Source: Planctomycetota bacterium (GTDB lineage: Bacteria > Planctomycetota > JACOTG01). Taken from it: a stretch of DNA of 64,000 nt. The position numbers and the translations under genes are program-made. Within the stretch, counting starts at the first letter, position 1. Each line of letters starts with the position of its first letter. Under the pieces are notes generated by a model, which had not been told where the DNA came from, ran no database searches, and worked only from the letters and a program-made list of their open reading frames with translations. This document shows positions 2,786 through 45,887 of the stretch, one piece after another. The DNA is taken from NCBI GenBank assembly GCA_016178505.1, contig JACOTG010000307.1:48216-112215 (forward strand), in the 5' to 3' direction.

Positions 2786-4096
2786 TCAGGGTCCCGTGCG
2801 GTTCGCCCTCGCGTTGCCGCGCGGAGGCTCGAGCGGCGGGACTTTGGGCAACGTCGGGCCGAATCGCTCGCCGCGGAACGGCGTCGATTGCGTGTCGAAG
2901 CCGGGCCCGTACCCCTGGAACGACCAGACGAGCTGCGGCGAGCCGAGTGCGTTCAACACTTGGAGGTTCCGCGAGCAGACGCCCTGGCTGATGTCGGTCT
3001 GACCCGCAGCGAACGCCTCGTTCGCGTCGAGCACGCGCTCGCCCTCGAGCGGATCGATCCGTCCGTTGCCGTTGGCGTCGTTGTCGCGACCGAATCCGTT
3101 CCAGAGCGCGTTCGAGAACGCTCCCGTGTCCTTGTCGCGATAGGCATCTTCGCGAAGGACCCACTCCGCGTGCCCGTCGACGAAGACGACCGTTGCGCCA
3201 CCGTTGTGCCGGTTGCTGAGCACGCTGCGCGCCGCCTGGCAGTGCCGTTGATCGGCAGCGCCGCGCGATCCTGCGGCACCGGCGATGTCGTTCGTCTGGT
3301 CGAGCACGCCGTCGTTGTTCAGGTCGCGAAGGGGAAGAAACGTCGGGTCCAGCAGGAACCCGTCATTGCCGAGCTGCGCGAGACCGTCCTGCCCGATGGT
3401 GCCCGGAGCGCCGTCGTTCGAAGTCGGCGGGAGCGACGTCGAGGGCGACCGATACGGCGAGTAACCGCCGGTGCCGTCGCTCGACCCGAACGCGATCGTC
3501 TTGTCCGGCCGCGGAATTTGAGCGCGCGTGACCGGGTAGTTCACGAAGCCCCGAACCGGCTGGCCGTTGACGATGGGTGCGGCCGGCCCCGTCGAGTCGA
3601 GGCGTTCCCGCGCGTCTCCGAGGTACTGGTAGTTGTAGCCGATCGAGTTGTTTCGCCCGATCTCCCAGCCGCCCGCGGCCGGATCGGCGAAGCCCTTGTT
3701 GAAGACCGTTTGGTCGCGGTCGCCGCTCGCGCCGTTCACGTCGTTCGGGTCGCCGCCCGCGCGTCCCTGTGCGTCGGTGATCGCACGCTCGTCCGAGCCC
3801 ATGTAGGGCGCGAGCGCGTTCATCCAGCGCTGCCGAATCGCGACGGCAGTCCCGGTCGAATCCTGCCCATCGAACACCAACTCACCGGCCGGATAATGGC
3901 CGCGGTCGGCTTCGTACTGGATCAGAGCCTGGCCGAGGCTTCGCACGTTTTGCAGCGACTTCGTTTGAAGGCTCTTCGCTCGCGCGTTCTCGATGGCCGG
4001 GAAGAGAATCGCGGAAAGCGTGAGCACGATGGCGAGCACGGCGAGGAGTTCGATCATCGTGAACCCCGCCGCGCCGCGTGGCGTAAAGCGCTTCAT
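2786..4096 (-). CDS. Prepilin-type N-terminal cleavage/methylation domain protein
   Basis: MKRFTPRGAAGFTMIELLAVLAIVLTLSAILFPAIENARAKS; C-terminal FVDGHAEWV motif. Confidence 0.85.
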   Translation of the reverse strand: MKRFTPRGAAGFTMIELLAVLAIVLTLSAILFPAIENARAKSLQTKSLQNVRSLGQALIQYEADRGHYPAGELVFDGQDSTGTAVAIRQRWMNALAPYMGSDERAITDAQGRAGGDPNDVNGASGDRDQTVFNKGFADPAAGGWEIGRNNSIGYNYQYLGDARERLDSTGPAAPIVNGQPVRGFVNYPVTRAQIPRPDKTIAFGSSDGTGGYSPYRSPSTSLPPTSNDGAPGTIGQDGLAQLGNDGFLLDPTFLPLRDLNNDGVLDQTNDIAGAAGSRGAADQRHCQAARSVLSNRHNGGATVVFVDGHAEWVLREDAYRDKDTGAFSNALWNGFGRDNDANGNGRIDPLEGERVLDANEAFAAGQTDISQGVCSRNLQVLNALGSPQLVWSFQGYGPGFDTQSTPFRGERFGPTLPKVPPLEPPRGNARANRTGP

Positions 4097-10363: not shown

Positions 10364-10924
10364 ATGCGAAAAGTCCTGTACATCTTGAACGAGTTGGCCG
10401 ACGCCGACATCGACTGGTTGGTCCAGAATGGGGTCCGCAAGTCGTTCACGAAGGGAAGCGTTCTCATCGAAGAAGGCCGCCCAATTCCCGTTCTCTTCAT
10501 CCTTCTCGACGGGCAGCTTTCCGTGACATTGAAAGCGCTCGGAGGCAAGGAAATCGCTGCCCTGAAGTCGGGTGAGGTCCTGGGGGAGCTTTCGTTCCTC
10601 GACTCGCGTCCCCCTTCCGCGTCGGTCGTCGCGACGACCAGCGTCACGGTGCTCGCCGTTTCCCGGGCGATGCTGAGCTCGAAGCTCGATGCGGACCACC
10701 CGTTCGCGGCGCGCTTCTACCGCGCACTCGGCGTCTTCCTGGCGGCGCGCCTTCGCAAGACACAGCAGCGCCTCGGATACGACGGCAAGCTGAACCTGGA
10801 CGAGACCGTTCGGCACGAGGACGAAATGGATGCGGATCTGCTCGGCGGCGTCGCGCTGGCCGGCGCTCGGTTCGACTGGATGATGCGACAACTCCGTGCC
10901 GCGCCGAGGGTCGAGGCGTCTTGA
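10364..10924 (+). CDS. Cyclic nucleotide-binding domain protein associated with NHLM export locus
   Basis: cNMP fold: VRKSFTKGSVLIEEGRPIPVLFILLDGQLSVTL...GEVLGELSFLDSRPPSASVVA; no obvious HTH. Confidence 0.8.
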   Translation: MRKVLYILNELADADIDWLVQNGVRKSFTKGSVLIEEGRPIPVLFILLDGQLSVTLKALGGKEIAALKSGEVLGELSFLDSRPPSASVVATTSVTVLAVSRAMLSSKLDADHPFAARFYRALGVFLAARLRKTQQRLGYDGKLNLDETVRHEDEMDADLLGGVALAGARFDWMMRQLRAAPRVEAS

Positions 10925-10994
10925 CCCTCCCGATTTCGTCTTGGCCGGGGCCAACGCCGCTCGTTCGTCGACGCGCCGCTCGGAGTCAACTCTG

Positions 10995-12362
10995 ATGGCG
11001 GAGTCGAGTCCCGGCCTCTTTCGAGAAAAGTCGCTCGAGCGTCTCTCCTCTCCGGAGAGGCTCGATCAGCTTCTCCGCGTCGTCGACCGCCGCTCGTGGA
11101 TTCCCCTTCTCGCAACTTCGATCCTCGTCGCAGGCGTCGTCGTTTGGGCCGTCTTCGGCCGGATCCCGGTGAACGTGCAGGGACGCGGGATGCTCGGTCG
11201 GCCCCGCGACATCGTGCATGTCGAAACACCGAGCGCCGGCTACCTATCCGAGCTCGACGTCACGGTTGGCGAACGCGTCGCCGCGGGAGCCGTCGTCGGC
11301 AAGATTCGAAAGCCGGAGATCGAGAAACAACTCGCGCTCGAACGCGAGAAGGCAAAAGAGCTGGCCGCTCAGATTCGCGCCGTGAAAGTCATCTTGAATC
11401 AACCGCCTGGAGCCTCGACTGATTGCAGCCCCGACGTCCAAGGCACCAGCGTCGAGGCCTACATCTTGGGGTATCGCAAGCTGGCCGAAGCGCTGCGTCA
11501 GAAAGAACAACAGGCCATCGAGGAAGACCGCGCAAGGCTCCAGGAGCAGTGGAACTTGACCCACGAACTCGCCGAGTCCCGCCGCAAGCGATTGGAGGCG
11601 CAACGCAAGCTGCAGGAGTCCGGGATCGTTTCCGTCGAGGCGCTCGTGGAAGTCGAAGCGTCCATGGTCGACAGCCTCTCGAAGATGTCGGACGTGGAGG
11701 GGAAGCTTCGCGAGGTCCAGACCCGACAGTTGGAAGCCGAAGAGCGATATCTCGACCGGATCGAGCGGATCTCGGACCGCGAGCAGCAGTTCGCCGAGGT
11801 CAACCGAAAGGTCGCGATGCTCGAGGATCAGCTGCGCGAGGGGAGCCAGATCGTGGCCGCCCACGCAGCGCGAGTCATCGAGGTGAGCGCGGCGGTCGGC
11901 GACTTCCTCGAGGCGGGCGCGCGCATCGCGTCGATGGTGGTGAACGAATCGAGCAACCCGCTCGAGTGCGTGACCTACTTCACCGTCAAGGATGGAAAGC
12001 GAGTCGCCCTCGGGATGCCGGTCCTCGTCACTCCCGACACCGTGGAGCGCGAGCGCTACGGGAGCATCGTCGGCAAGGTCACTGCCGTTTCGCCCTTCCC
12101 CGTCTCGCTGTCGGAAGCGGAGGAAGTGGTGGGAAATCGCGAGCTGGCGGAGGCGTTGATCGCCGGCGGCTATCGGATCCAGGTCTTTTCCGAACTCGAG
12201 CCCGATCCGACGACGTCGAGCGCGGTCAAATGGTCAGCCTCCAAGGGACCCGGATTCCCGATCACCGCGGGCACGACGACCACGGCTCGCGTCGTCGTCG
12301 AGCGAAGGGCGCCGATCACGTTCGTGATCCCGATCCTGAAGTCAGCCGCGGGAATCGACTGA
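10995..12362 (+). CDS. NHLP-type secretion protein, HlyD family periplasmic adaptor
   Basis: N-terminal TM then biotinyl-lipoyl-like VETPSAGYLSELDVTVGERVAAGAVVGKI and long coiled coil. Confidence 0.85.
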   Translation: MAESSPGLFREKSLERLSSPERLDQLLRVVDRRSWIPLLATSILVAGVVVWAVFGRIPVNVQGRGMLGRPRDIVHVETPSAGYLSELDVTVGERVAAGAVVGKIRKPEIEKQLALEREKAKELAAQIRAVKVILNQPPGASTDCSPDVQGTSVEAYILGYRKLAEALRQKEQQAIEEDRARLQEQWNLTHELAESRRKRLEAQRKLQESGIVSVEALVEVEASMVDSLSKMSDVEGKLREVQTRQLEAEERYLDRIERISDREQQFAEVNRKVAMLEDQLREGSQIVAAHAARVIEVSAAVGDFLEAGARIASMVVNESSNPLECVTYFTVKDGKRVALGMPVLVTPDTVERERYGSIVGKVTAVSPFPVSLSEAEEVVGNRELAEALIAGGYRIQVFSELEPDPTTSSAVKWSASKGPGFPITAGTTTTARVVVERRAPITFVIPILKSAAGID

Positions 12363-12373
12363 GAGCACCGGCG

Positions 12374-14542
12374 ATGGGACCGCGCATTCCAACGACACCG
12401 ACGGTACTTCAGATGGAGGCGGTGGAGTGCGGCGCGGCATCGCTCGGAATCGTCCTCGCGCATTGGGGTCGCATCGTCCCCCTCTCGGAACTTCGAGAAG
12501 AGTGCGGGATCTCGCGTGACGGCAGCAATGCAGCCAACGTCGTCAAGGCCGCGAGACACTACGGGCTGAAGGCAAAGGGCCTCTCGACCGAGTTCGAAGA
12601 CGTCCAGAAGTTGCCGGGCCCTTTCATCGTCTTCTGGAACTTCAATCACTTCCTCGTCGTGGAGGGCTTTCGAAAAGGCCGCGCCTACCTCAACGACCCT
12701 GCAAGCGGACGACGAACCGTCTCGCTGGAAGAGTTCGATCAGGCGTTCACCGGCGTGGTCCTATGCATGGAGCCCGGTCCCGATTTCGAGAAGAAAGGGA
12801 GACCGCCGAGCACGATTCGTGCATTGTCTCGCCGCCTGCGCGGCTCGGAGAGAGATCTCGCATTCTGCATCGTAGCCGGCCTCCTCTTGGTCGCTCCGGG
12901 CCTCGCGGTTCCGATGATGACTCAGGTCTTCGTGGACGGTGTGTTGATCGCGGGACGGAGGGACTGGCTGCGCCCGTTGCTTCTCGGGCTCGCGTTGATG
13001 GCCGTCTTACAAATCGTCCTGCGGCTGCTCCAACTGCGGTACTTGCGCGAACTGCGGACCAAGCTCGCCGTGAAGCTCTCCGGCCTGTTCCTGTGGCACG
13101 TCCTGCGATTGCCGGTCGGTTTCTTCGCGCAACGATTCGCGGGCGAGATCAGCAGTCGATTGGCGCTCAACCACGGAATTGCCGAAAGCCTCTCCGGCCA
13201 ACTCGCAACCGTGGTCATCGACTGCACGATGCTGCTCTTCTACGCCGCGATCATGTTCAGCTACGATCCGATCCTCACATCCATCGGGATCGCGTTCGCG
13301 TTTGGAAACCTGTTCGCGCTGCGGTGGATCTCGCGCAGCCGCATCGACGCGAACATGCGGCTGCGGCAGGAGCTCGGCAAAGTCGCCAGCGTCTCGATTT
13401 CGGGATTGCAAAGCATCGAGACCTTGAAGGCGTCCGCGCTCGAGTCGCCATTCTTCGCGCGATGGGCCGGCTACTATGCGAAGGCGACCGAGGCACAGCA
13501 GGACCTCGATGTATCGAATCAGACGCTCGGAGTCCTGCCCGTTCTGCTCTCCGCGCTGACGGCGATGCTGATCCTCGTGGTCGGCGGCTGGCGAGTGCTC
13601 GACGGCAAATTGACCATCGGCATGCTGGTGGCGTTCCAAGGCTTGATGCTGAGCTTTCAGGGCCCCGTCGGCACGCTCGTGGATCTCGGCGGAGTTCTCC
13701 AAACGCTGCAGGGCGATCTGCAACGCGTCGACGACGTGCTCCTCCATCCGGTAGATCCTCAAACGGATGCGCGAGGAGGAGCCCGCGCTGCCACCGGCTC
13801 GAACGAGCGACTCGTCGGGCACGTGGAGCTTCGCAACGTGACGTTCGGCTACAGCCGCGTCGCGCCGCCGCTCGTCGAGGGACTGAACCTGGTCATTCGT
13901 CCGGGGCAGCGCGTCGCGCTCGTCGGGTCGAGCGGGTCCGGCAAGTCGACGGTGGCCAAGCTGGTGTGTGGTCTGTATCGACCCTGGGAGGGTCCGATCC
14001 TATTCGACGGAACGCCTCGCGACGAGTTGAGCCGTACCCTGCTCGCGAGCTCGCTCGCGATGGTGGACCAGGATCTCCTCTTTTTCGCGGGCACCGTCCG
14101 CGACAATCTCACGCTATGGGACGACACCGTGCCACAGGCTCACCTGGAAGCAGCGTGTCGTGACGCCGAGATACACGACGTCATCCTTTCGTTGCCGGGC
14201 GGCTACGACGCGGAGCTCCTGGAGGGCGCGGCGAACCTGAGCGGCGGCCAGAGACAGCGGCTCGAGATCGCCCGCGCGCTCATCAACAACCCGACCATCC
14301 TGGTCCTCGACGAGGCAACGAGTGCGCTGGACGCGGAAACGGAGTTCAAGATCGATCAAAACCTGAGGCTCCGGGGATGCTCGGTCCTGATCGTGGCACA
14401 CCGCCTCAGTACGATCCGGGACTCCGAAGAGATCATCGTGCTCAGTCGCGGCCGGGTTGCCGAGCGGGGCCGGCACGAGGAACTCTGGACCGCGGGCGGC
14501 GACTATCGGCGATTGATCCAAAGCGAAGGAGGCGCGCTCTAG
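12374..14542 (+). CDS. NHLM-type ABC transporter with N-terminal C39 peptidase domain
   Basis: C39 motif QMEAVECGAASLGIVLAHWG and NHFLVVEGF..AYLNDPASG; Walker A GSSGSGKST, LSGGQRQRLEIARAL, Walker B; start ATG 12374 within longer ORF. Confidence 0.9.
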   Translation: MGPRIPTTPTVLQMEAVECGAASLGIVLAHWGRIVPLSELREECGISRDGSNAANVVKAARHYGLKAKGLSTEFEDVQKLPGPFIVFWNFNHFLVVEGFRKGRAYLNDPASGRRTVSLEEFDQAFTGVVLCMEPGPDFEKKGRPPSTIRALSRRLRGSERDLAFCIVAGLLLVAPGLAVPMMTQVFVDGVLIAGRRDWLRPLLLGLALMAVLQIVLRLLQLRYLRELRTKLAVKLSGLFLWHVLRLPVGFFAQRFAGEISSRLALNHGIAESLSGQLATVVIDCTMLLFYAAIMFSYDPILTSIGIAFAFGNLFALRWISRSRIDANMRLRQELGKVASVSISGLQSIETLKASALESPFFARWAGYYAKATEAQQDLDVSNQTLGVLPVLLSALTAMLILVVGGWRVLDGKLTIGMLVAFQGLMLSFQGPVGTLVDLGGVLQTLQGDLQRVDDVLLHPVDPQTDARGGARAATGSNERLVGHVELRNVTFGYSRVAPPLVEGLNLVIRPGQRVALVGSSGSGKSTVAKLVCGLYRPWEGPILFDGTPRDELSRTLLASSLAMVDQDLLFFAGTVRDNLTLWDDTVPQAHLEAACRDAEIHDVILSLPGGYDAELLEGAANLSGGQRQRLEIARALINNPTILVLDEATSALDAETEFKIDQNLRLRGCSVLIVAHRLSTIRDSEEIIVLSRGRVAERGRHEELWTAGGDYRRLIQSEGGAL

Positions 14543-14564
14543 TGGGCGCTGCCGGGCAGACGAC

Positions 14565-17207
14565 GTGACTTCACATTCGCACGAGGCTCGGGTTCTGCGA
14601 GGGAACGAGGTTCTCTCTCTCGACGATCCCGACGGCGTCTGGGTCGTCGAGAGCGGGCGCGTCGCCCTCTTCGCCCTGTTTCGTCGCGAAGGCTCGGAGC
14701 ACGGACCCCGCCGATTCCTGTTCAGCAGCGGGCCCGGCGAGGCACTCCTCGGTTTCCCACGCGGAGGCGATCGAAAGCAGCCCGCCATCATCGCCGTTGC
14801 CCTGGAAGAGGCTCGGATTCGAAGGCTCCCGCGGAGTTCCTCCGAAGGTCCGGACGGAGCGGCGCGAACGCCGGCAGAGCTGACCGAGTGCTGGGTGGCG
14901 AAGTGGACGGCATGCGTCGCGATCATCGGTAACGTGCGTCCGCCACCGGGCGGCGCGCTCATCGAGTTCCACTCCGCGGTGTTGGATCGACTCAGGGAAT
15001 TCGACGCTCGAACCACCGACGAGGACGGAGCGCGCCTTCGAGAGCGCGAACGGAGGTTCGGCGAAGTCGTTCAGCAAGCGATCGATGGGCTCACCTCGGT
15101 TCTCGGCCCACGCGGGGACGTCACGCACCGAGGCTCGGATCTCTTCGTGGCGGCGTCCACCGTCGGGCATGCGCTCGGGATCACGATGCGACGCCCGGCG
15201 GCGTGGGAGGAGACGCGCGCTCTCTCGGATCCCGTCGAGACGATCGCCCGCGCGTCGCACGTCCGAACTCGAAAAGTGAACCTCGACGGGAAGTGGTGGA
15301 ATCAGGACTGCGGACCGCTCCTCGGGTTCGCCGGTGCAGAGCGCCGGCCGGTTGCCCTGCTTCCGAATCCCGCCGGCGGCTACGTCGTGTTCGATCCGTC
15401 GAATCGCAGTCGGGTCCGCGCGGACGCGATGGTCGCGTCTTCGATTCAATCTCAGGCGTATGCCTTCTATCGGCCATTGCCCGAAAACGCGACCCGCGCC
15501 CCCGATCTCATCCGCTTTGCCCTGCGCGGCCGCGGTAGAGATCTCCTTGTCGTTCTCGCCACGGCATGCGGAGCGACGCTGCTCGGGATGTTCACACCGC
15601 TGGCAACCGCGTTGCTCGTCGACCACGCGCTTCCCGACTCCGATCTCGGCCTCCTGACTCAGATAGGGCTCGGGTTGCTTGCTGCCGCGTTCGGAATCGC
15701 CGTCTTTCGTTGGTCGCAAGGAATCGCCATGCTGCGACTCGAAACCGGAGCCGATTCGGTCACGCAGTCGGCGGTGTGGGATCGCCTCCTGAACCTGCAG
15801 CTCTCGTTTTTCCGCCAGTTCTCGACCGGCGATCTCGAGTCGCGCGTGACCGCGGTGAGCCAGATGCGGAGCTACCTCGGAGGAACGACGCTCCGAACGC
15901 TCTTCAGCGGAGTCGTTCTCCTCTTGAACCTGGGGCTCCTTCTCTATTACAGCCCGACGATGACTCTGCTCGCCGTGGTGGTCGCCATTCTCTGCGCGGC
16001 GGCGACCGTCATCTCGGGCGTCGTCGTCCTTCGTTGTGCGCGATCGGTTCTCGATCTCAAGGGCCGGTTCTTCGGGCTCATGGTTCAGCTCGTCAACGGC
16101 ATCGCGAAGCTCCGTGTGGCGGCCGCGGAAGAGCGAGCGTTCAGCCGGTGGGCGCGGGACTACGCGCAACTCCTGCAGCTCGAGCTGCGTCAGACACGAG
16201 CCCAGGATGCGGTACAAGTGATCAATGTGGCGATTTCGACTCTCGGCACCGTCGTGTTGTTCATGATCGGCGCCTCACTGCTCGACCCTCAGCAAGGAAC
16301 TCGCGAACTGACGACCGGCGTCTTTCTCGGGTTCACGGTTGCGTACGGATCATTCATCGGCGCCGTCGTCGGCGTCAGCAACACGGTCACCGACGTCATG
16401 GCGATCGCGATTCTGAGCGAACGCGCGCGACCGATCCTCGAAGCCACGCCGGAGATCGATGACCGCAAGGCCGACCCGGGCGAACTCGAGGGGAAGATGC
16501 AACTCGACCGCGTCGTGTTCCAGTACACCAACGACGGTCCCGTGATCCTCAACGGACTGAGCCTGAGCGTCGATCAGCGCCAGTTCGCCGCGATCGTCGG
16601 CCCGTCGGGAAGCGGCAAGTCGACGCTGCTTCGTCTCCTCCTCGGCTTCGAGACACCGCAGTCGGGAACGATCTACTACGACGGACAGGACCTTGCGGGA
16701 CTCGACGTGCATGCCGTGAGACGCCAGCTCGGCGTCGTGCTCCAAGCCGGACGAATCAACTCGGGCTCGATCTTCGAGAATATCGTCACGGGAACTCAGG
16801 TGACGTTGAACGACGCGTGGGAGGCTGCACGGGCGGCCGGATTCGCCGACGACGTCTCCGAGATGCCGATGGGTATGCACACGATCGTGAGCGAAGGCGG
16901 CACCAACCTCTCCGGCGGCCAGCGGCAGCGCTTGCTCATCGCGCGCGCCCTCGTTCACAAGCCGAAGATCCTCTTCCTCGACGAGGCCACGAGCGCGCTC
17001 GACAATCGAACGCAGGCTGTCGTGAGCGAGAGCCTGGAGAAGCTCGACGTGACTCGCGTCGTGATCGCTCATCGACTCAGCACCGTGCGCAACGCAGATC
17101 GCATCTTCGTCGTCGAAGCCGGCCGCGTCGTCCAGTCCGGAACGTTCTCGGAGCTCGCGGAGCAGGAGGGTCTGTTCGCTCGCTTGATGGCGCGCCAGCT
17201 CACATAG
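14565..17207 (+). CDS. Second NHLM-type ABC transporter ATP-binding/permease (no peptidase)
   Basis: Long N-terminal extension, TMD, GPSGSGKST, NLSGGQRQRLLIARALVHKPKILFLDEATSALD. Confidence 0.9.
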   Translation: MTSHSHEARVLRGNEVLSLDDPDGVWVVESGRVALFALFRREGSEHGPRRFLFSSGPGEALLGFPRGGDRKQPAIIAVALEEARIRRLPRSSSEGPDGAARTPAELTECWVAKWTACVAIIGNVRPPPGGALIEFHSAVLDRLREFDARTTDEDGARLRERERRFGEVVQQAIDGLTSVLGPRGDVTHRGSDLFVAASTVGHALGITMRRPAAWEETRALSDPVETIARASHVRTRKVNLDGKWWNQDCGPLLGFAGAERRPVALLPNPAGGYVVFDPSNRSRVRADAMVASSIQSQAYAFYRPLPENATRAPDLIRFALRGRGRDLLVVLATACGATLLGMFTPLATALLVDHALPDSDLGLLTQIGLGLLAAAFGIAVFRWSQGIAMLRLETGADSVTQSAVWDRLLNLQLSFFRQFSTGDLESRVTAVSQMRSYLGGTTLRTLFSGVVLLLNLGLLLYYSPTMTLLAVVVAILCAAATVISGVVVLRCARSVLDLKGRFFGLMVQLVNGIAKLRVAAAEERAFSRWARDYAQLLQLELRQTRAQDAVQVINVAISTLGTVVLFMIGASLLDPQQGTRELTTGVFLGFTVAYGSFIGAVVGVSNTVTDVMAIAILSERARPILEATPEIDDRKADPGELEGKMQLDRVVFQYTNDGPVILNGLSLSVDQRQFAAIVGPSGSGKSTLLRLLLGFETPQSGTIYYDGQDLAGLDVHAVRRQLGVVLQAGRINSGSIFENIVTGTQVTLNDAWEAARAAGFADDVSEMPMGMHTIVSEGGTNLSGGQRQRLLIARALVHKPKILFLDEATSALDNRTQAVVSESLEKLDVTRVVIAHRLSTVRNADRIFVVEAGRVVQSGTFSELAEQEGLFARLMARQLT

Positions 17208-20669: not shown

Positions 20670-22181
20670 ATGTCGGCGAAGGAAACCGTCTTCGTCGTTG
20701 ACGACGACGAGAGCGCCCGCGAATTGCTCGTTCGTCGCCTCGAGCGCGAGGGGTTCGACGTCGTGGCCGCCGCGGACGGGCTGCAAGCCCTGGATGCGGC
20801 GGAAGAGACGACTCCGCAGCTCGTCATCCTCGACATCGGCATGCCGACGATGGACGGACACGAGACGGTGCGGCGGCTGCGCGCCGATGCCCGAACGGCG
20901 CTGGTTCCCGTCCTCTTCTTGACGTGCCGCAGCGATCCGGACGAGAAAATCGCCGGGTTCCAATCGGGCGCGGACGACTACGTCGTGAAGCCGTACGACG
21001 GTCGAGAGTTGATGGCGCGCGTTCGCGCGATCCTCGACCGAAATCGAAAGCTGCGTGCCCTCTCTCCAACCAATCACGACGTCGACCAACAGAAGCTCGA
21101 ATGTCTGAAGCACGTCGTCACGCTTCCGCGCGAGACTCTTGCGCCGTCGGTCGATTCGACGTCGCCGTTCGGCCATCGCTGGGGCGCAGCTGACTCGCCG
21201 TTTCCCGCGGATCCGGAACGCCAGATCGCGTTTCTCGAGGATCTCGTCTCGGCCGGCTGCCTGCAGCCCGAGTTCTTCGACACGATTCACCTCTGCAAAT
21301 CGTGCCGTCGCTACAACCTCAACTTCCGTGAGGTTTGCCCGGTGTGCGGATCGCCCGACATCGAGGTAGCCGATCTCATCCATCACTTCCGCTGCGCGTT
21401 CGTGGCGCCGGTCTCGCGCTTCTTGAGCGGCACGCGCTACGTCTGCCCGAAGTGCGATCGAGAGCTCCGCCACATCGGAGTCGACTACGAGAAGCCGTCG
21501 CAGAGCTTCGCCTGCCGGCCGTGCGGCGCGGCGTTCCGGGAGCCGGAGGTCGCTTGTGCGTGTCTCGCCTGCGGCGCAAAGGCGCTTGCCACCGAAGAAC
21601 GCGTCGAGCGGCTGTACGCGTATCGACTCACGGCGAAAGGTCGTCTTGCCGCCGAGAGCGGCCACCTCTACGACGTCGATTTCGCGAGACTCATGGAAGA
21701 TGGATCGCTCGAAGTGCTCGGGGCGGCGAGCCTACAGCCCACGCTTCAGGCGGAGGTCGCGCGATCGCGCCGATTCGGGCGCCCCCTGTCGCTCCTCGTG
21801 GTGACGCTCGAGGGCGTGGAGGAACAGATCGCCGCGGAAGGTCGGCTCGCCGTCGCGACTCGAATGCGGGAAACGGCGCAGGTTCTTCGAGGCGCGATCC
21901 GCGAAACGGACGTGCCGTGTCGGTTCGGCGAGCACGGGCTCGCGTGCATCCTCCCAGAGACGACGGAGGCGGCGGCGGACACGATCGCGACCACGTTGCG
22001 CGAACGACTGGCAAGCGATGGCGCAGGCGAAGTCCCGGTCGCCGTGTCCATCGCGGTCGCGGGCCTGGACACGACGACCGAAACCGAGGACGGGCTCCTC
22101 GGGCTGGCGATCGCACGCCTTGAAGAGGAACGCCGACGGGTGTTGGCCGATGGGAGCGAGGTCGGTGGAATCGATCGATGA
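20670..22181 (+). CDS. Response regulator: REC + Cys-rich TackOD1-like domain + degenerate GGDEF-like domain
   Basis: VFVVDDDESARELL, VILDIGMPTMDG, VVKPYDGREL; CKSCRRYNLNF..CPVCGS..HHFRCAF..CPKCDRELRHIGVDYEKP; FGEHG where GGDEF expected. Confidence 0.75.
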   Translation: MSAKETVFVVDDDESARELLVRRLEREGFDVVAAADGLQALDAAEETTPQLVILDIGMPTMDGHETVRRLRADARTALVPVLFLTCRSDPDEKIAGFQSGADDYVVKPYDGRELMARVRAILDRNRKLRALSPTNHDVDQQKLECLKHVVTLPRETLAPSVDSTSPFGHRWGAADSPFPADPERQIAFLEDLVSAGCLQPEFFDTIHLCKSCRRYNLNFREVCPVCGSPDIEVADLIHHFRCAFVAPVSRFLSGTRYVCPKCDRELRHIGVDYEKPSQSFACRPCGAAFREPEVACACLACGAKALATEERVERLYAYRLTAKGRLAAESGHLYDVDFARLMEDGSLEVLGAASLQPTLQAEVARSRRFGRPLSLLVVTLEGVEEQIAAEGRLAVATRMRETAQVLRGAIRETDVPCRFGEHGLACILPETTEAAADTIATTLRERLASDGAGEVPVAVSIAVAGLDTTTETEDGLLGLAIARLEEERRRVLADGSEVGGIDR

Positions 22182-23454
22182 CTTCTTGAAGCTGATCAGC
22201 GGCACCTCCGATCGACTGGCGAGCTTGCCGCTCGACCAGATCGTGCGGATGCTCTGGTTCTGCTTTTTCCTCGACCTCCCACGCTACGTGATTCCGAACA
22301 CGGTCATCTTCCTCCGCGAGTTGCTTGGAATGCGCGGTCGCATTCCGTGGCCGCCCGACGGTCCGAACCAGCCGATGGTCACCGTTCTCATCCCCGCCTA
22401 CAACGAAGGCGAGACGATCGCGCGCACCGTCCGATCGATTCGCGAGAGCAACTACTCCAACATCGAGATCATCATCGTCGACGACGGCTCGACCGATTGC
22501 ACGCCCGCGGTCGGACGCGCGGTGGAGAGCAGTGGGCACGCGCGGTTCTTCCGCAAAGAGGAGCGCTGCGGAAAAGCTTCGTGCCTGAACCTCGCGCTCG
22601 AGATGGCGCGCGGCGAGTTCATCGTCTGCATCGATGCGGACTCGTCGCTAGACCGCGACGCGATTCGCAAGATCCTCGTTCCGTTTCAAGATCCGAACGT
22701 GGGAGCCGTGTCCGGTTGCGTCAAGGTTCGCAATCGCGACGAAAACCTCCTCACGCGATTGCAGGCTTGCGAGTACCTGGTTTCGATCGCGCTCGGCCGG
22801 CGATTCCTCGGTTGGATCGGATTCCTCACCATCGTCTCGGGCGCGTTCGGCTGCTTTCGTCGATCGACCTTGAGCGAATGCGGCGCATGGGATCCCGGCA
22901 TCGGCGACGACTCGAACGTCACGCTGAAAACCCGCAAGCTCGGACAGTGGGTTGCTTTTGCGCCCAATGCCGTGGCGATGACCGACGCGCCGACGACATT
23001 GGCGAAGTTCTTTCGTCAGCGTCGCCGGTGGAGTCGCAGCTACCTTCGAAACCGTCTGCGCAAGCACCGCGATCTCTTCAATCTGCGCGTCTACGGCCTC
23101 CGCAGCTTCTTTGCGCTGACCGAGGGTCTGCTCTATACCGCCGTGTTGCTGCTCGGGTTCATCGTCTATTTGGCGTTCAACATCATTTACCGTCCGGGTG
23201 ACTTGCCGCTGATCGCCGTTCTCGCGTTCATCGTCTACTCGTTCGTCTCGTGTTCGAGCGTGGCGATCGCGATCTTTCTCTCGGAACGTCGAGCCGAGGA
23301 ATGGCATCTCCTTTTCGCCGCGCCATTCCTCGTCTTCTATCGACTCATCCTCAAGGCCGCACGGGTCGTCGCCTTCTCGCAGGAGATCTTCGTGCAGCGC
23401 GCCCGCGATCCGTTCTATCCGGACAAGGTCGCGCGGGAGATGCCGGTGTGGTAA
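22165..23454 (+). CDS. Processive family-2 glycosyltransferase (cellulose/PNAG synthase-like)
   Basis: VTVLIPAYNEGETI, VDDGST, CIDADSS, GDDSN, QRRRW motifs and flanking TM helices; GTG start inferred (ATG 22150 alternative). Confidence 0.85.
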   Translation: MESIDDFLKLISGTSDRLASLPLDQIVRMLWFCFFLDLPRYVIPNTVIFLRELLGMRGRIPWPPDGPNQPMVTVLIPAYNEGETIARTVRSIRESNYSNIEIIIVDDGSTDCTPAVGRAVESSGHARFFRKEERCGKASCLNLALEMARGEFIVCIDADSSLDRDAIRKILVPFQDPNVGAVSGCVKVRNRDENLLTRLQACEYLVSIALGRRFLGWIGFLTIVSGAFGCFRRSTLSECGAWDPGIGDDSNVTLKTRKLGQWVAFAPNAVAMTDAPTTLAKFFRQRRRWSRSYLRNRLRKHRDLFNLRVYGLRSFFALTEGLLYTAVLLLGFIVYLAFNIIYRPGDLPLIAVLAFIVYSFVSCSSVAIAIFLSERRAEEWHLLFAAPFLVFYRLILKAARVVAFSQEIFVQRARDPFYPDKVAREMPVW

Positions 23455-25592
23455 CGGCACATCCACTCGCCGCGTTCTTCGTGGTCGCAGCCTGCCTCGC
23501 GCTTCGGCTCGACAGCGACCCGGCGTGCCGGCCCCAGGCGGCGTCGTCGATCGGTCCTGACGATTGCCTTGCGTCCGCACGCGAGCGGAACCCAGACTGC
23601 ATCGTCGCGCGTGAGGAAGTCGAGAGGGCACGGGCGTCTCTCGAGGAGGCCGAGCACAAGAACTACCCGCACCTCGTACTGAATTCGCGGTACGTCACCG
23701 GCGGCGGCGGACTCCTCGATGCTCAAAGCGGGCTCGGCACGTTCGGTTCTCGGTTCTCGTCGAGCCTCTATCTCGAACAGGGCTTCCTGAGGAGCTGGCG
23801 CGATCGCACCCTGTCGATCGAATTCGCGGCGCAGTCCGTCCCCGAGGCGCAGGCGATGTGCGCCGAGGTCGAACACTCCGCTCTGTGTGACGTTCTCGCT
23901 GCATACGTGAACGCGATCGAATTCGAGGAGCGCGCAGGCGACGCCGAGGCGATGCTGGCGTCGCTCCGCGCGTCCGAAGGGCCGCTGAGGGATGCCGTCG
24001 ATCGCGGCGCCGCGCTCGAGCGCGATCTCGTGCGCCTTCGCGAATCGATCGCGGCCGCCGAGTCGACGCTCGACACGGCGCGGAACGATGCGGCCGCCGC
24101 GCGAGCCCGACTTGGACGCCTCGCCGGCATCGAGATCGCGGACCCGGTGCGACTGCGACCCGTTACCGCGGCAGCGCCCGACCTCTCGAAAGAAGCCATC
24201 GCCTCAGCGGCGCTCGCAAGCCGCGCGGATCTCGCACGACTCCGCGCACAGATAGCGACCAAGGAAAAAGACCCAGCTCTCGCCGGGAACGCGCTTCCCG
24301 ACGCGGCGCTCGGACTCGGCTACGAGGGTCGGGGCGACTCGACGCCGCTCCAAGAGTCCGGATTCGGCGTACGACTTCGCATCGACTACCCACTCGGCGC
24401 GTCGCACACGGACGACGCTCGTCGCGCGAGAGCGCGCGCAGAACTTCGCCAACTCCACGTGCAGGAGTCGGACCTGGTCCAGCGAATCGGCGACGAGGTC
24501 GCCGATGCGTGGCGCGGCGTCGACGCAGCGAAACGGACGCGCAGCGCGGCTGCGACGGCTCTCGCGGCTCGCGAGGAAGAGCTTCGCGTGCTTCGAGCAC
24601 GGCAAAGCGCACCGAGCCCTCCCTCGCTTCTCGAGCTTGCCGATGCGGCCGCCAAAGCCGAGGACGCGCGATCACGTCTGCGCCTCGCGGAGTTCCCAAC
24701 TCTGCGCGCCATCCTCCGTTTGGTCCAGGCCGCCGGACTTCCGCCAGAACAGGCACTGCGCGACGAGCCGGCACCGAAGTCCAGCGCGGGCGCATCGCCG
24801 CCTCGCCGAGCGATCTGGGCGTGGACGAGCACGTTTTCCGGCGACGGTGCGGACCCGGACCCCGTTCGATTCCTGGACTTCTGCGTCGCCCGCAACGTCG
24901 GAACCGTCTTCCTCTCCCTCGGCGCCGATCCGGCGCGTCCCGAGCTGCCGTTCGATCTGCGCACGCTGGTCTCACAAGCGGCGTCTCGGGGGATCGACGT
25001 CGAGATGCTCGTCGGCGACCCGACGCACCTCGACGGAAAGTCTCGCGCGATCGATGCCGCCGTCGCCGCAGGTGCGCGCCTGGCTGGCGAGGCGGTCGGA
25101 ATTCGCGCACTCCACCTCGACGTCGAACCGCAGGCGCACGACGCGTGGCACAGCGACCGTGAGACCGTCGTGCAGTCGCTCGTCGCCTGCCTTCGCGCGA
25201 CCCGGGAGGCGCTCGCTCGCAACGCACCCACGATGCGCCTGGTCGCCGACCTCTCGCCGGTATTCGCGGAGCGCATGCTGCCCGAGGTCGACGAGGCGGC
25301 GCTCATGATCTACTCGAGCCGCGTTGAGCAAGCGATCCTCACCGCAACGCCGATCCTCGACGCGGCGCAACGCGCCGGAAAGCGCGTCTGGATCGGCGTG
25401 AAGGCGAGCGCGGCGGGCGACTCGACCGACGGCTTCCAGGATCTCGGCGCACTCGAGGATGCGATCCGAAGGATCGAAGCGAAGTTCCGCGATCACCCTG
25501 CGTTTCGAGGCGTGGCGATTCACCACGCACGCTCGTACCGCGAACTCCTTCTAGACGGAAGAGGCCATGCGACTCCGAACGGCGAACGGTAA
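23448..25592 (+). CDS. TolC-like outer membrane efflux protein fused to a C-terminal barrel/glycosidase-like domain
   Basis: Signal-like N-terminus; alpha-helical OEP-type region to ~24790; then AIWAWTSTFSGD...GTVFLSLG...IDVEMLVGD...IRALHLDVEPQAHDAW...WIGVKAS...GVAIHHARSY. Confidence 0.7.
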   Translation: MVTAHPLAAFFVVAACLALRLDSDPACRPQAASSIGPDDCLASARERNPDCIVAREEVERARASLEEAEHKNYPHLVLNSRYVTGGGGLLDAQSGLGTFGSRFSSSLYLEQGFLRSWRDRTLSIEFAAQSVPEAQAMCAEVEHSALCDVLAAYVNAIEFEERAGDAEAMLASLRASEGPLRDAVDRGAALERDLVRLRESIAAAESTLDTARNDAAAARARLGRLAGIEIADPVRLRPVTAAAPDLSKEAIASAALASRADLARLRAQIATKEKDPALAGNALPDAALGLGYEGRGDSTPLQESGFGVRLRIDYPLGASHTDDARRARARAELRQLHVQESDLVQRIGDEVADAWRGVDAAKRTRSAAATALAAREEELRVLRARQSAPSPPSLLELADAAAKAEDARSRLRLAEFPTLRAILRLVQAAGLPPEQALRDEPAPKSSAGASPPRRAIWAWTSTFSGDGADPDPVRFLDFCVARNVGTVFLSLGADPARPELPFDLRTLVSQAASRGIDVEMLVGDPTHLDGKSRAIDAAVAAGARLAGEAVGIRALHLDVEPQAHDAWHSDRETVVQSLVACLRATREALARNAPTMRLVADLSPVFAERMLPEVDEAALMIYSSRVEQAILTATPILDAAQRAGKRVWIGVKASAAGDSTDGFQDLGALEDAIRRIEAKFRDHPAFRGVAIHHARSYRELLLDGRGHATPNGER

Positions 25593-26760
25593 GACTCAAA
25601 ACGTACTCTCCACGGCGAACCCCTACGAGTCGCCCGAGAAGCCGCGCCGCCACGCGGTCGCACAGATCGTCACCGTGGGTGTCGTGCTTCTCATCGCCGC
25701 GGTGTTCGCCGGCCGGTATCTCCGTCGAATCTGGATCATCGACTCGCTCGCCGTCGTCGATGCCGCGCGCATCGAGATTGCCGCGCCCCTGTCGGGCCGC
25801 CTCTCGGCGGTGTTCGTCAAAGAGAATCAACGAGTCCGCCCCGGAGATCTCGTCGCGCGATTCTCGGATCCGAGCCTCGAGGCCGAGCGCCGCGCCGCGG
25901 ACTCTGCCATCGCCATGGCGCGGAGTCGACTCGACATCGCGCTTCGCAACGAACCGGCGCCCGTCGTCTCCCCGGCCGAGATCGCCGCGGCGCGCGCGCA
26001 GGTCGACGAATGCGACGTCGCGATTCGCGCTGCGATGAACGACGAAGCCGCCGCACAAGCCTCGCTGGAGAGCGCCATGAGTCGGCGCCGGCGCATCGAG
26101 TCGCTCGTTCTCGACAAGGCGGCGACGGTTTCGGAAGTGGACCCGGCGGCACGCGACGAAGCGGCGGCGCGAACCGCGGTCGTCTCCGCGAAGGGAGAGG
26201 TGGAGCGACTCTTGGCGAAACGGAAGGGTTCGCTCGCGGCGATTGCGGCCCTCGAGGACAAGGCCACTGGACCCGTGTTCAAGGAGGCGTTGCGACGTCG
26301 GGACACCGAGATCGCGGAATGCCGGCGCCTCATCAGCGAAGCCGAGGAAGCTCGGCATCGCGTCGACGTTCGATTGGCCGAATTGGAAGTTCGGGCTGAA
26401 CGAAATGGGATCGTGGTGAACCCTCCGCGGCATCCGGGCGAAGTCCTCGCAGCAGGCGAGCCCATCGTCACCCTGCGCGATCTCGTCGATCCCTGGGTCG
26501 ATCTCTACGTTCGAGTCGATCGTGCGTCGATCGTCTTCCCCGGAAGCAAGGTCGACCTCACGGCCAAGGGATTCGGATCGATTCGCGGGGTCGTCGACAG
26601 CTTCTATCCCGACGTCGACGTCCTTCCGTCGCCGCTCCGAAACCCGGATCGACCGCAAGACCGCTACGCCCGCGCGAAGCTCCGCATCGACGGTGGAAAT
26701 GTCCTGGGTCTCTCTCCAGGGCAGGTCCTCCAGGCAAAGGTGATTCGCGCCGAGCACTGA
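25567..26760 (+). CDS. HlyD family periplasmic adaptor
   Basis: N-terminal TM, AARIEIAAPLSGRLSAVFVKENQRVRPGDLVARFSD, coiled coil, LRDLVDPWVDLYVRVD. Confidence 0.85.
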   Translation: MRLRTANGKTQNVLSTANPYESPEKPRRHAVAQIVTVGVVLLIAAVFAGRYLRRIWIIDSLAVVDAARIEIAAPLSGRLSAVFVKENQRVRPGDLVARFSDPSLEAERRAADSAIAMARSRLDIALRNEPAPVVSPAEIAAARAQVDECDVAIRAAMNDEAAAQASLESAMSRRRRIESLVLDKAATVSEVDPAARDEAAARTAVVSAKGEVERLLAKRKGSLAAIAALEDKATGPVFKEALRRRDTEIAECRRLISEAEEARHRVDVRLAELEVRAERNGIVVNPPRHPGEVLAAGEPIVTLRDLVDPWVDLYVRVDRASIVFPGSKVDLTAKGFGSIRGVVDSFYPDVDVLPSPLRNPDRPQDRYARAKLRIDGGNVLGLSPGQVLQAKVIRAEH

Positions 26761-26878: not shown

Positions 26879-27763
26879 GTGAGCCCAACTCCCGACACCG
26901 TCACTACCCGTGACCGCAAGCTGATCCTCGCCGCGTGCGTGCTCGTTGCGCGAGCCGACGGCGGACTCGCGGAATCCGAGCGCGCCGAACTCGAGCGTCT
27001 GGCGACGGCGTGGTTCCCCGACGAAGACGCGGTGCTCGCCGTCGAAAAGCTGTGTCACCACGAACTCTCACCGGATGAGATCGTTGCTGGACTCTCGGGA
27101 GGCGCCGCTCGGGAATCGCTTTGGATGTGCTTGTCGACGATCTCGGCGATCGATGCCAATGTGCCAGCGCCCGAGCAGGCGGTGATCGACCGATTCTCGA
27201 AGCTCCTCGATCGAGGCGCCGGCCGCGCCGGAGATCGATCCGATGGCCCCGGTCCGGCGGCACGGCAAGGGGAATCACGCGAGCAAGCCGCCGAGCGTAC
27301 CGTACTTTGGTTCTCGGTCTACTCCGCCGTCGTCGGCGCGATGCCGCAGCCGTTCTTCTCCGATTTCTCACTCATACTCCCGGCGCAGATCTGGATGCTC
27401 CGGCGAATCGGCGCACACTACGACGTCGCTTTCGACAGCAAGATGATCGCCGAGTTCGCAGGGATCGCCATGCTCTCCGCCGGAGCCGAAACGCTTCGCC
27501 ATGCGCTCTCGCGCTTCGTGCCGATTCTCCCTCGCGCCGCAACGGAGGCCGCTTCGCAGTTCGCTGTCACGTATGGGCTCGGCCGTCTCGCGATCGCGTA
27601 CTTCGACGGAGGACGCAAGGTCGACGCCGAGGTCCTCCGGCGCGTCTACGCCGATGCACGGCGGCGCGGCGCCGAGATCTACTCGCGATTCGCGACCATG
27701 TTCGCTGGACGCAGTGAGAAGGACGTCGACGGAATCGTAAGCGACATCTTGCGCGGCACCTAG
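26879..27763 (+). CDS. TerB-like N-terminal + DUF697-like domain protein
   Basis: LILAACVLVARADGGLAESERAELERLA; C-terminal FSLILPAQIWMLRRIGAHYDV...FVPILPRAATEAASQFAVTYGLGRLAIAYFDGG. Confidence 0.6.
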   Translation: MSPTPDTVTTRDRKLILAACVLVARADGGLAESERAELERLATAWFPDEDAVLAVEKLCHHELSPDEIVAGLSGGAARESLWMCLSTISAIDANVPAPEQAVIDRFSKLLDRGAGRAGDRSDGPGPAARQGESREQAAERTVLWFSVYSAVVGAMPQPFFSDFSLILPAQIWMLRRIGAHYDVAFDSKMIAEFAGIAMLSAGAETLRHALSRFVPILPRAATEAASQFAVTYGLGRLAIAYFDGGRKVDAEVLRRVYADARRRGAEIYSRFATMFAGRSEKDVDGIVSDILRGT

Positions 27764-27784: not shown

Positions 27785-27813
27785 TTGAGCGACCTCCTTC
27801 GGCACCGTAGAAT
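27785..27813 (+). promoter_or_regulatory. Sigma70-like promoter of baeRF-like gene
   Basis: TTGAGC-N17-TAGAAT; SD aaggagg before GTG 27866. Confidence 0.5.
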
Positions 27814-27865
27814 CCATCGTGCATTCCGACCCACCAACCGAGTGAACTGCCGAAGGAGGCTTCAC

Positions 27866-29011
27866 GTGATCACGCGCGCACAAATCGACGAGCTGGCCGA
27901 CCACAAGCCCGGTGCCTATCCCGTTACGTCTGTGTACCTCGACACCGACTCGCGCCGACACACAGGCGGCGAGTACTCGAAGGTCTTGGAGAGCCTGCTC
28001 ATCGCAAAGAAAGTCGAGGTCGAACAGTCCGAATACTCCAAGGACCAGCAGCGGTGGATCCTGCAGGACTTCGCGAAGATTCAGGAGTTCGTCACGTCCA
28101 AGTCCCGAAATGAAACCCGACGCGGACTCGCCGTTTTCTCGTCGGCTGCGGCTGGATTGTGGCAAGCGTTGCCGTTGCCTCGCGCGATCCCCACTCAAGT
28201 CATCGTCGACGACGTGCCGTACGCACGTCCGCTGCTCGTTCTGTTCGACGAGTTCGAGCGATTCTGCGCCGTCGTCGTCGATCGGCGGCGCGGCCGAATC
28301 TTCGACATTTTCATGGGTGAGATCCAAGAGATCGGAGACATCGAGGACGACGTTCCGAAGAAGACCCGCGGGACCGGACACTTGTTGAAAGCGGAAACGG
28401 CGGTCACGCGCCACATCGGGGAGCAGTGGCGTGCGCACTACAAGAATGTCGCGGACTACGCCCTGTCGGCATTTCGCCGCCAGCCGTTCGATCGACTCGT
28501 GGTCGGCGGACCGGCGTCCGATCTCTCCGACTTCGAGAAGACGCTGCACTCGAGCCTTCAACAAAAGATCGCGGGCCGCATCAGCGTGCAAGTCGGAGTC
28601 GAATCGACCCCCGCCGAAGTGCTCCGACAGACACGGGAAATCGAGCAGGCGCTCGCTCGCGATCGCGAGTTCCGGCTCATCGAATCGCTCCTCACGCAGG
28701 CGCACTCCGGCAAACTGGGAACCGTGGGCCTTGCCGATTCGCTGAAGGCGCTCCGCGGAGGTCAGGTTCACACGCTCGTGTTGAAGGACGGATTGCGCGT
28801 CGAAGGCGTTTTCTGTTCGTCGTGCCGATTCATCGGCCTCGGCGAACGAGAATGCCCGACGTGCTCGAAACCGACGCGGACGACGAGCGACGTCGTCGAT
28901 CTTGCCGTCGCGGAGGCCATGCTCCAGGGCTGCGAAGTGCGGCACGTTTTCGAGGCGAGCGCGCTCGACTCGGTCGGGTCCGTCGGGGCACTCCTCCGGT
29001 TTCGAGCATGA
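27866..29011 (+). CDS. Bacterial eRF1/aRF1-like (baeRF family) protein
   Basis: PVTSVYLDTDSRR...GLAVFSS...PYARPLLVLFDEFERFCAVVVDRRRGRIFDIFMGEI...; C-terminal CSSCRFIGLGERECPTC. Confidence 0.7.
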   Translation: MITRAQIDELADHKPGAYPVTSVYLDTDSRRHTGGEYSKVLESLLIAKKVEVEQSEYSKDQQRWILQDFAKIQEFVTSKSRNETRRGLAVFSSAAAGLWQALPLPRAIPTQVIVDDVPYARPLLVLFDEFERFCAVVVDRRRGRIFDIFMGEIQEIGDIEDDVPKKTRGTGHLLKAETAVTRHIGEQWRAHYKNVADYALSAFRRQPFDRLVVGGPASDLSDFEKTLHSSLQQKIAGRISVQVGVESTPAEVLRQTREIEQALARDREFRLIESLLTQAHSGKLGTVGLADSLKALRGGQVHTLVLKDGLRVEGVFCSSCRFIGLGERECPTCSKPTRTTSDVVDLAVAEAMLQGCEVRHVFEASALDSVGSVGALLRFRA

Positions 29012-30238: not shown

Positions 30239-30772
30239 ATGCGACCTTTTTCGACGTCCGACGATCGAAAGCGATTCGGCGAGCTTCTCTTCGAGGAAGG
30301 TCTCATCTCCTCCGAAGACCTCGAGCGAGCACTCGAGACACAAAGGAAAACGGGCGAACTTCTCGGCGAGATCCTCGTCGAGGGAGGTCTCATTTCCGAA
30401 TGGGACATCGTCCGCGTCATCGTCAAGCAGTACAAGCTCCCATACCTTCCATCGACTCGGTACAGCGTTCCGAAGGAAGTGCTGACGATTTTCCCGCCGA
30501 AGTACCTTCATGCGAACCTCATCGTCCCACTCGACCTCTTCGGCGACGTCGTCGTCATCGCGACCGCGCGGAATCCCTCGGCCGAGCTGATGCAGGAGAT
30601 CGAGCAGCAGTTCAAGTTCTATCCCCTGGTCTACGTCAGCACGATCACGGACGTGAAGACGACGCTAGCCAACTACTTCCCGACTCCGTTCTCGGAGTTC
30701 GACGGAATGCTCACCGACCTCAAGAGCAAGATGAAGAAGGTGGAGCCACAGTGGCAGCTCCCAAAAGAGTGA
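30239..30772 (+). CDS. Stand-alone type II secretion/PilB ATPase N-terminal (MshEN-like) domain protein
   Basis: FGELLFEEGLISSEDLERALETQRKTGELLGEILVEGGLISEWDIVRVIVKQYKLPYL; no ATPase domain. Confidence 0.75.
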   Translation: MRPFSTSDDRKRFGELLFEEGLISSEDLERALETQRKTGELLGEILVEGGLISEWDIVRVIVKQYKLPYLPSTRYSVPKEVLTIFPPKYLHANLIVPLDLFGDVVVIATARNPSAELMQEIEQQFKFYPLVYVSTITDVKTTLANYFPTPFSEFDGMLTDLKSKMKKVEPQWQLPKE

Positions 30773-43767: not shown

Positions 43768-44070
43768 ATGAGCCCGCGCGGAAAGGCTCGCGAACAGGTC
43801 CCATGTCCACACTGCGGCGAGTATATTCCGTCGGATTCGAGCTTCTGTAAGCACTGCGGAAGTGACCGAGAGACCGGCTGGGCAGACGACGACGAGATCG
43901 CATATCAGGCCGTCGAACTCCCCGAGGACGAAGACGGGGAGTTCGAACAGGACGCGCCTCGCCAATCCAACCCGTGGATTCGTCGCGGCGCTTACTTGGG
44001 GCTCATCGCCATGGCGATCCTTGTCGGCATCCTCGCTATCGTTTTCATGGCGTTGACGCGAGGCTGTTGA
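43768..44070 (+). CDS. Zinc-ribbon membrane protein
   Basis: CPHCGEYIPSDSSFCKHCGS and C-terminal TM. Confidence 0.75.
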   Translation: MSPRGKAREQVPCPHCGEYIPSDSSFCKHCGSDRETGWADDDEIAYQAVELPEDEDGEFEQDAPRQSNPWIRRGAYLGLIAMAILVGILAIVFMALTRGC

Positions 44071-44074
44071 AACG

Positions 44075-44100
44075 AAAAAAGCCCGGATTGCTCCGGGCTC
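44075..44100. terminator. rRNA-unit terminator (also convergent gene end)
   Basis: Minus strand gagcccggagcaatccgggcttttttcg. Confidence 0.85.
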
Positions 44101-44113
44101 GAATGTTTAATAG

Positions 44114-44224
44114 CCCTGGCGACGACCTACTCTCCCCGAGTTCATCGAGTACCATCGGCACGAGGAGCTTAACTGCCGTGTTCGGAATGGGAACGGGTGT
44201 TTCCCCCTCGTTATGGTCACCAGG
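44114..44224 (-). rRNA. rrf: 5S ribosomal RNA
   Basis: CCTGGTGACCATAACGAGGGGGAAACACCCGTTCCCATTCCGAACACGGCAGTTAAGCTCCTCG...GGGGAGAGTAGGTCGTCGCCAGG. Confidence 0.93.
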
Positions 44225-44242
44225 AATTATTTATTATTAATG

Positions 44243-44267
44243 CAACGAGGGCGAACGAGGCAGGATG
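44243..44267 (-). other. 3' arm of 16S pre-rRNA processing stem
   Basis: caacgagggcgaacgaggcaggatg (+) matches, inverted relative to transcript, the leader arm at 46014-46041. Confidence 0.7.
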
Positions 44268-44318
44268 CGCCTATTGGATCTGAACCGCCATTGCTAGCAG
44301 TCCAATCTAAGGTTATCC

Positions 44319-45887
<1,569 letters not shown>

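Follow-up and report, generated by a model that had tools for sequence, protein, structure and literature searches.

A four-gene cassette predicted to export a synthase-made polysaccharide through HlyD and TolC under c-di-GMP control

The stretch analyzed here, called the window, comprises 64,000 nucleotides (nt) of a Planctomycetota bacterium (draft metagenome-assembled genome GCA_016178505.1, 7.16 Mb; contig JACOTG010000307.1, positions 48,216 to 112,215). Between window positions 20670 and 26760, four plus-strand genes with overlapping ends encode, in order, a regulator, a family 2 glycosyltransferase (GT2), a TolC-like protein fused to a C-terminal barrel, and an HlyD-family adaptor (Table 1). 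The overlaps measure 32 nt (regulator/GT2), 7 nt (GT2/TolC-barrel), and 26 nt (TolC-barrel/HlyD). The operon thus brings together a processive-type GT2, envelope-spanning partners, and a predicted receptor for cyclic di-GMP (c-di-GMP), and no ATP-binding cassette (ABC), resistance-nodulation-division (RND), or major facilitator superfamily (MFS) gene lies inside it. The original prediction, made from the DNA letters, had described such a pumpless operon of four overlapping genes; open reading frames (ORFs) and Pfam matches agree with it and refine two of its parts, the regulator to a receiver (REC) domain, a zinc-ribbon TackOD1 domain, and a GGDEF-like domain devoid of its active site, and the barrel to a (beta-alpha)8 fold that resembles glycoside hydrolases.

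The synthase, the barrel, and the adaptor

As predicted, the GT2 displays the motifs of a processive enzyme (DDGS, DAD, GDD, and QRRRW), with transmembrane (TM) segments at both ends as judged by hydropathy. The catalytic aspartates and the QxxRW residues are invariant in 49 GT2 homologues, and [QR][RQ]xRW is found in 71 of 72. PgaC_IcaA is the best NCBIfam family for the window GT2 (177 bits, cut-off 422); at an E value of 1e-20, it is also the one family to which every one of the 49 homologues has a match, with NodC matched by 41 and CelA by none. Moreover, the CelA model TIGR03030 gives the window GT2 ~51 bits (cut-off 699), a Pfam scan found no PilZ domain in the window GT2 or HlyD, and hyaluronan and chondroitin synthases rank above BcsA among the PDB matches. 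As judged by these comparisons, the GT2 is PgaC/HasA-like and not cellulose synthase-like, and because it scores below the equivalog cut-offs, it looks like a separate subfamily. An amino sugar is our best guess for the window cassette. In seven other loci, a same-strand gene close to the cassette encodes a nucleotide-sugar dehydrogenase of the TviB or UDP-glucose type, which suggests that some lineages probably make a uronate-containing (acidic) polymer.

The TolC-barrel protein has a hydrophobic, signal peptide-like N terminus and a C-terminal extension of 265 residues. No Pfam family matches the window barrel, and weak matches to glycoside hydrolase family 18 (GH18) occur in 10 of 48 barrel homologues. 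An AlphaFold model of the domain is a (beta-alpha)8 barrel (predicted local distance difference test [pLDDT] score, 89; predicted template modeling score, 0.88), for which Foldseek retrieved Cwp19, GH18 chitinases, GH113, GH191, and PgaB-C (4p7o, TM-score 0.62), while a profile of the barrel family matches the putative glycosidase 10yv at 5e-18. D108 and E110 of a DxE motif are nearly invariant in the 48 homologues and, together with a conserved later MxY motif, resemble GH18. The fold and these residues point to a glycoside hydrolase-like (GH18/PgaB-C) domain with putative hydrolytic activity. The barrel is a separate gene in three loci; in two others the DxE motif is missing, and so those barrels may be inactive or structural. 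Locus L039 has a second, stand-alone barrel copy (positions 2860-3726) beside its cassette.

The HlyD protein is predicted to have a single N-terminal TM segment, lipoyl halves, and a long coiled coil, and a phmmer search of the PDB with it gave no match at an E value of 1e-3.

Table 1. Features of the operon in the window
Feature	Coordinates	Strand	Basis
Regulator, REC-TackOD1-degenerate GGDEF	20670..22181	+	Pfam PF00072 1e-28, PF18551 4.9e-47, PF00990 1.9e-6
REC receiver domain, regulator amino acids (aa) 7-119	20688..21026	+	Pfam
TackOD1 domain with CxxC zinc ribbons, regulator aa 139-320	21084..21629	+	Pfam PF18551
RETD, candidate I-site RxxD (R411, D414) in GGDEF-like domain	21900..21911	+	Profile alignment to PleD R359/D362
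GT2, putative polysaccharide synthase, 434 aa, ATG start	22150..23454	+	Pfam PF00535/PF13641 (Glycos_transf_2)
DAD, DxD metal/UDP motif of GT2	22633..22641	+	Invariant in GT2 alignment
QRRRW, QxxRW processivity motif of GT2	23017..23031	+	Pattern
TolC-family outer-membrane factor with C-terminal barrel, 714 aa, GTG start	23448..25592	+	Pfam OEP 3.1e-23
TolC/OEP part	23565..24740	+	TIGR01844 match, aa 106-497 of TolC-barrel protein
C-terminal (beta-alpha)8 domain, glycoside hydrolase-like	24798..25589	+	AlphaFold, Foldseek, profile match
DVE, DxE at end of strand 4, putative catalytic acid of barrel	25119..25127	+	Conservation
HlyD-family periplasmic adaptor	25567..26760	+	Pfam HlyD_3, HlyD_D23, Biotin_lipoyl_2
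RIESLVLDKAAT in HlyD, matching RxxxLxxxxxxS/T hairpin-tip motif of TolC-docking adaptors	26092..26127	+	Pattern

Conservation of the cassette across phyla

A contig scan that used the TolC-barrel protein alone as query gave no matches, and so an alignment of the regulator was taken as the query; a whole-protein search of relatives with the TolC-barrel protein returned generic TolC matches only. Because homologous loci were chosen by the regulator alone, the partner genes were not selected for. Run against 84,980 species, this alignment yielded 177 loci, of which 80 were kept; by their record titles, these belong to Planctomycetota, KSB1/Calditrichota, Desulfobacterota, Nitrospirota/Nitrospinota, Gammaproteobacteria, Bacteroidota, Balneolota, Sumerlaeota, and others, and the cassette occurs across about ten phyla. 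Within Planctomycetota, PF18551 was detected in 24 of 294 genomes at an E value of 1e-3 (16 above the family cut-off).

Partner genes were called with profiles built for this analysis in 91 non-duplicate loci, of which 44, a set that includes the window and a few close relatives, are fully flanked (5.5 kb or more of sequence to either side). A same-strand GT2 and HlyD, with TolC and/or the barrel, are present in 37 of these 44, and the conserved neighborhood that the original prediction had proposed as a check is borne out in gene content. Gene order varies among 60 cassettes while the gene set stays constant, with TolC/barrel-HlyD-regulator-GT2 in 19 and regulator-GT2-TolC/barrel-HlyD in 13, and the median spacing of cassette genes is 2 nt when starts are set by the longest ORF. 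The same gene set in other phyla rules out chance adjacency. Also, across the 60 cassettes the four proteins have correlated pairwise distances (r of 0.77 to 0.89, permutation maximum of 0.20; HlyD versus GT2, 0.86), which shows coinheritance, a pattern that species phylogeny alone could partly give.

All four genes, in the exact order of the window, are carried by a mobilizable 29-kb plasmid of Aeromonas caviae (NZ_AP024139.1), where they are annotated in turn as diguanylate cyclase, glycosyltransferase, TolC family protein, and HlyD. A whole cassette on a mobilizable plasmid is a sign of movement as a unit. A second plasmid record of identical length, NZ_AP024951, has the regulator at its end.

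To survey possible pumps, all non-cassette ORFs within 9 kb of the cassettes were clustered across loci, and no pump family turned up in more than three of these loci. The two largest clusters were left aside, being apparently shadow ORFs that run antisense to genes of the cassette. In the window, the nearest pump belongs to a complete NHLP-type peptide export set (10364-17207) made up of a cyclic nucleotide-binding-like protein, an HlyD, ABC1, and ABC2. ABC1, which has a C39-like peptidase, and ABC2 (12365-17204) score above their family cut-offs, as does the set's own HlyD (TIGR03794; 10896-12359; 303 bits, cut-off 156). An exporter with a dedicated HlyD has no need of the HlyD at 25567, and the pairing of the cassette HlyD with the NHLP exporter was rejected on this ground.

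The regulator and predicted sensing of c-di-GMP

The zinc-ribbon cysteines of TackOD1, a domain whose function the paper defining it describes as obscure (PMC5847659), are conserved in 74 to 79 of 79 regulator homologues. The canonical GGDEF site is lost in these 79, with a relaxed GG[DE][EF] string somewhere in one of them, and is replaced by FGEHG in the window; because the active site is absent, the public label "diguanylate cyclase" looks wrong. What persists is R411 (62 of 79) and D414 (73 of 79), which a profile alignment places on PleD R359 and D362, while a column 31 residues further on corresponds to PleD R390. R359 and D362 belong to the I-site of PleD, and R390 is its secondary c-di-GMP arginine. 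An AlphaFold model of the window regulator (pLDDT, 90.7) has PleD with c-di-GMP as its best Foldseek match.

GGDEF proteins were counted in 50 carrier genomes of unstated completeness, with three genomes that hold one marginal match (E values of 4e-4 to 1e-3) classed as cyclase free. R411 is kept in 22 of 23 cyclase-bearing and 8 of 23 cyclase-free genomes (Fisher p of 2e-5, relatedness ignored), and the secondary arginine is kept in 19 of 23 and 2 of 23, respectively; because the cyclase-free carriers are nearly all Bacteroidota or Balneolota, this contrast is phylogenetically confounded and is suggestive, not independent, evidence. Arginines that are kept alongside cyclases and decay in their absence point to a PelD-like receptor. 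PelD has a degenerate GGDEF domain whose RxxD motif binds c-di-GMP to control a polysaccharide synthase (PMC8461298), and streptococci, which lack c-di-GMP, have a PelD that has lost the GGDEF domain (PMC7112168). Alignment, structural model, and the PelD analogy together lead us to predict that the regulator is a PelD-like c-di-GMP receptor as well as a phospho-receiver. Further GGDEF proteins are encoded in the window genome, and one of them has a GGEEF site.

TackOD1 has other roles in archaea. A haloarchaeal TackOD1 protein, for instance, is encoded on Natronococcus occultus plasmid 2 with neither GT2 nor HlyD nearby.

Proposed mechanism, alternatives, and known systems

We propose that the cassette is probably a c-di-GMP-gated, synthase-dependent polysaccharide export machine, and we infer the contacts, sugar, ligand binding, and hydrolysis that this entails from the gene set and its domains. 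The GT2 would use UDP-sugars at the cytoplasmic face to polymerize an amino sugar glycan (N-acetylhexosamine or hyaluronan-like), which it would thread through its own TM channel. HlyD would dock on the synthase, which would thereby take the pump's place as inner-membrane partner, and on TolC through its coiled-coil tip, so that HlyD and TolC form a sealed periplasmic path with TolC as the exit. The hydrolase-like barrel at the TolC C terminus, presumably periplasmic, may trim, release, or guide the chain. In the cytoplasm, the regulator would bind c-di-GMP at its I-site, be tuned by phosphorylation, and turn the synthase on, much as PelD acts on Pel. We also lean, narrowly, toward a broader view in which a widespread c-di-GMP-gated class exists, where a synthase replaces the pump of HlyD and TolC, a glycosidase-like domain is built into the channel, TackOD1 is a dedicated regulator module for polysaccharide synthases, and the receptor decays while the machine is kept wherever c-di-GMP is lost.

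Several observations weigh against this proposal. In addition to the confounded I-site contrast, the secondary I-site position of the window is T442 and not arginine, with R444 two residues on. A GGDEF-like domain was not recognized in several alphaproteobacterial regulators, and for this reason we do not extend the c-di-GMP claim to them. TackOD1 is absent from two genomes of the window's own order, and a three-gene form with no linked TolC occurs on alphaproteobacterial plasmids and in Plesiomonas and Photobacterium. The TolC-tip motif is only partly conserved in HlyD; its presence in 28 of 68 homologues compares with a mean of 13.6 and a maximum of 23 among shuffled sequences, and a universal RLS/RLT tip motif was dropped as a general argument. 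The identity of the glycan is a guess, and the contact between GT2 and HlyD is one that we infer.

As a rule, HlyD and TolC depend on a pump. Theirs might be an ABC, RND, or MFS protein encoded elsewhere, in a conventional tripartite exporter, while the GT2 makes a separate product and is only coregulated. We judge this unlikely. An NHLP exporter does lie a few kilobases upstream in the window, and in Methylocystis an MFS/HlyD/OEP set adjoins the three-gene version; against this, the pairing with GT2 holds for either gene order and spans about ten phyla, HlyD distances track those of GT2, and the check for an unlinked pump raised by the original prediction turned up no recurrent family in the flanks and, nearby, only an NHLP set equipped with its own HlyD. 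A GT2 that glycosylates a lipid or other carrier and polymerizes no chain, with HlyD and TolC exporting a glycolipid or a hydrolase-processed oligosaccharide, seems quite improbable. QxxRW also occurs in some nonprocessive GT2s, and the MftF and XrtG-type GT2 families match too; nevertheless, the window GT2 matches PgaC/IcaA best, and no other family is matched by all 49 homologues (NodC reaching 41), the TM segments at both ends are arranged as in synthases, and the exporter is fused to a hydrolase-like barrel.

The regulator leaves more room for doubt. The switch might be phosphorylation of REC, or else the zinc or redox state of TackOD1, with no sensing of c-di-GMP and with RxxD a leftover of GGDEF ancestry, a possibility that we hold to be real if doubtful. 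RxxD is common in GGDEF domains, archaeal TackOD1 occurs without GGDEF (PMC5847659), and the window lacks the secondary arginine; retention of both arginines mainly where cyclases exist, and the precedent of PelD (PMC8461298, PMC7112168), argue for c-di-GMP. Least probable, and remotely so, is an operonic version of the cyanobacterial XcsA-XcsB-TolC system for cellulose or another beta-glucan. In the Thermosynechococcus model, a GT2, an HlyD-like adaptor, and a TolC-like channel secrete cellulose with no pump (PMC12430437), and the three component types are identical to those of the cassette; the model itself came without operonic evidence (PMC12430437). The likeness to it drawn by the original prediction holds for architecture but not for the type of GT2, which resembles PgaC/IcaA and hyaluronan synthases and lacks PilZ, and a cellulose identity was rejected on family scores. 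Xcs genes are also scattered, with a CelA-type GT2 that carries PilZ and a separate endoglucanase, whereas the cassette is a single operon with a PgaC-like GT2, a hydrolase-like domain on TolC, and a regulator with TackOD1 and a degenerate GGDEF domain.

The proposed c-di-GMP-gated export machine has a precedent for each of its parts, namely Xcs (unlinked), BgsBA, Alg8/Alg44, and PelD, and it is their combination that is apparently new. BgsBA, a c-di-GMP-activated system for mixed-linkage beta-glucan in Sinorhizobium and Rhizobium etli, likewise pairs a GT2 with an HlyD-like partner (BgsB) in one operon (PMC9495663), but c-di-GMP acts on the GT2 C terminus and the system is described as bicistronic, without a TolC, hydrolase, or TackOD1 gene. 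Pel shares the degenerate GGDEF domain with RxxD, as far as alignment can tell; however, PelD is a TM protein with a GAF domain that works with the soluble GT4 enzyme PelF and has no TackOD1, and no PelF, PelG, or PelE gene is found in the cassette operon, whose glycosyltransferase is a GT2. In alginate synthesis, Alg8/Alg44 join a GT2 to a partner with a membrane-fusion domain under c-di-GMP control (PMC8461298), with a PilZ receptor and AlgK/AlgE in place of TolC, whereas the cassette HlyD has no PilZ. The PgaABCD system for poly-N-acetylglucosamine offers the nearest GT2 family and, in PgaB-C, a similar barrel, but the cassette GT2 falls short of the equivalog cut-off, and the cassette has a TolC/HlyD route instead of PgaA, PgaD, and PgaB deacetylase genes. 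NHLP, type I, and other tripartite exporters rely on an ABC, RND, or MFS partner that the cassette does not have linked to it, while NHLP and type I exporters share its HlyD- and TolC-family parts.

The cassette is best filed as a widespread and apparently unnamed variant of synthase-dependent exopolysaccharide secretion. The open-licence literature on TackOD1 or GT2/HlyD/TolC operons yielded nothing relevant beyond the paper on the archaeal domain and a review on cyanobacteria, and the combination, its spread, and a role for TackOD1 were not found there, an absence that is no proof. Public annotation splits the cassette into "diguanylate cyclase," "response regulator," or "hypothetical protein," followed by "glycosyltransferase," "TolC family," and "HlyD." If correct, our proposal would give TackOD1 a function, add a further type of receptor for c-di-GMP-controlled polysaccharides, and show HlyD-TolC, a channel usual to drug pumps, at work without a pump. 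Unlinked genes are part of the reason why the cyanobacterial model is still a proposal; one compact operon, present in many phyla, in cultured bacteria, and on a 29-kb plasmid, can be cloned and tested directly.

Downstream of the operon, a TerB-like gene (26879-27763) follows HlyD on the same strand by ~120 nt and is not part of the conserved cassette at other loci. Next to it lies a gene for a ribosome hibernation/eRF1-like protein (27785-29011; NF052288, below cut-off), and at 30239-30769, 3.5 kb downstream of the cassette, a stand-alone gene encodes a small c-di-GMP-binding protein of the MshE-N type (NF053729, 66 bits). Further along the window, the GC fraction falls locally to 0.555 at 44001-46000, compared with ~0.63 in the surroundings.

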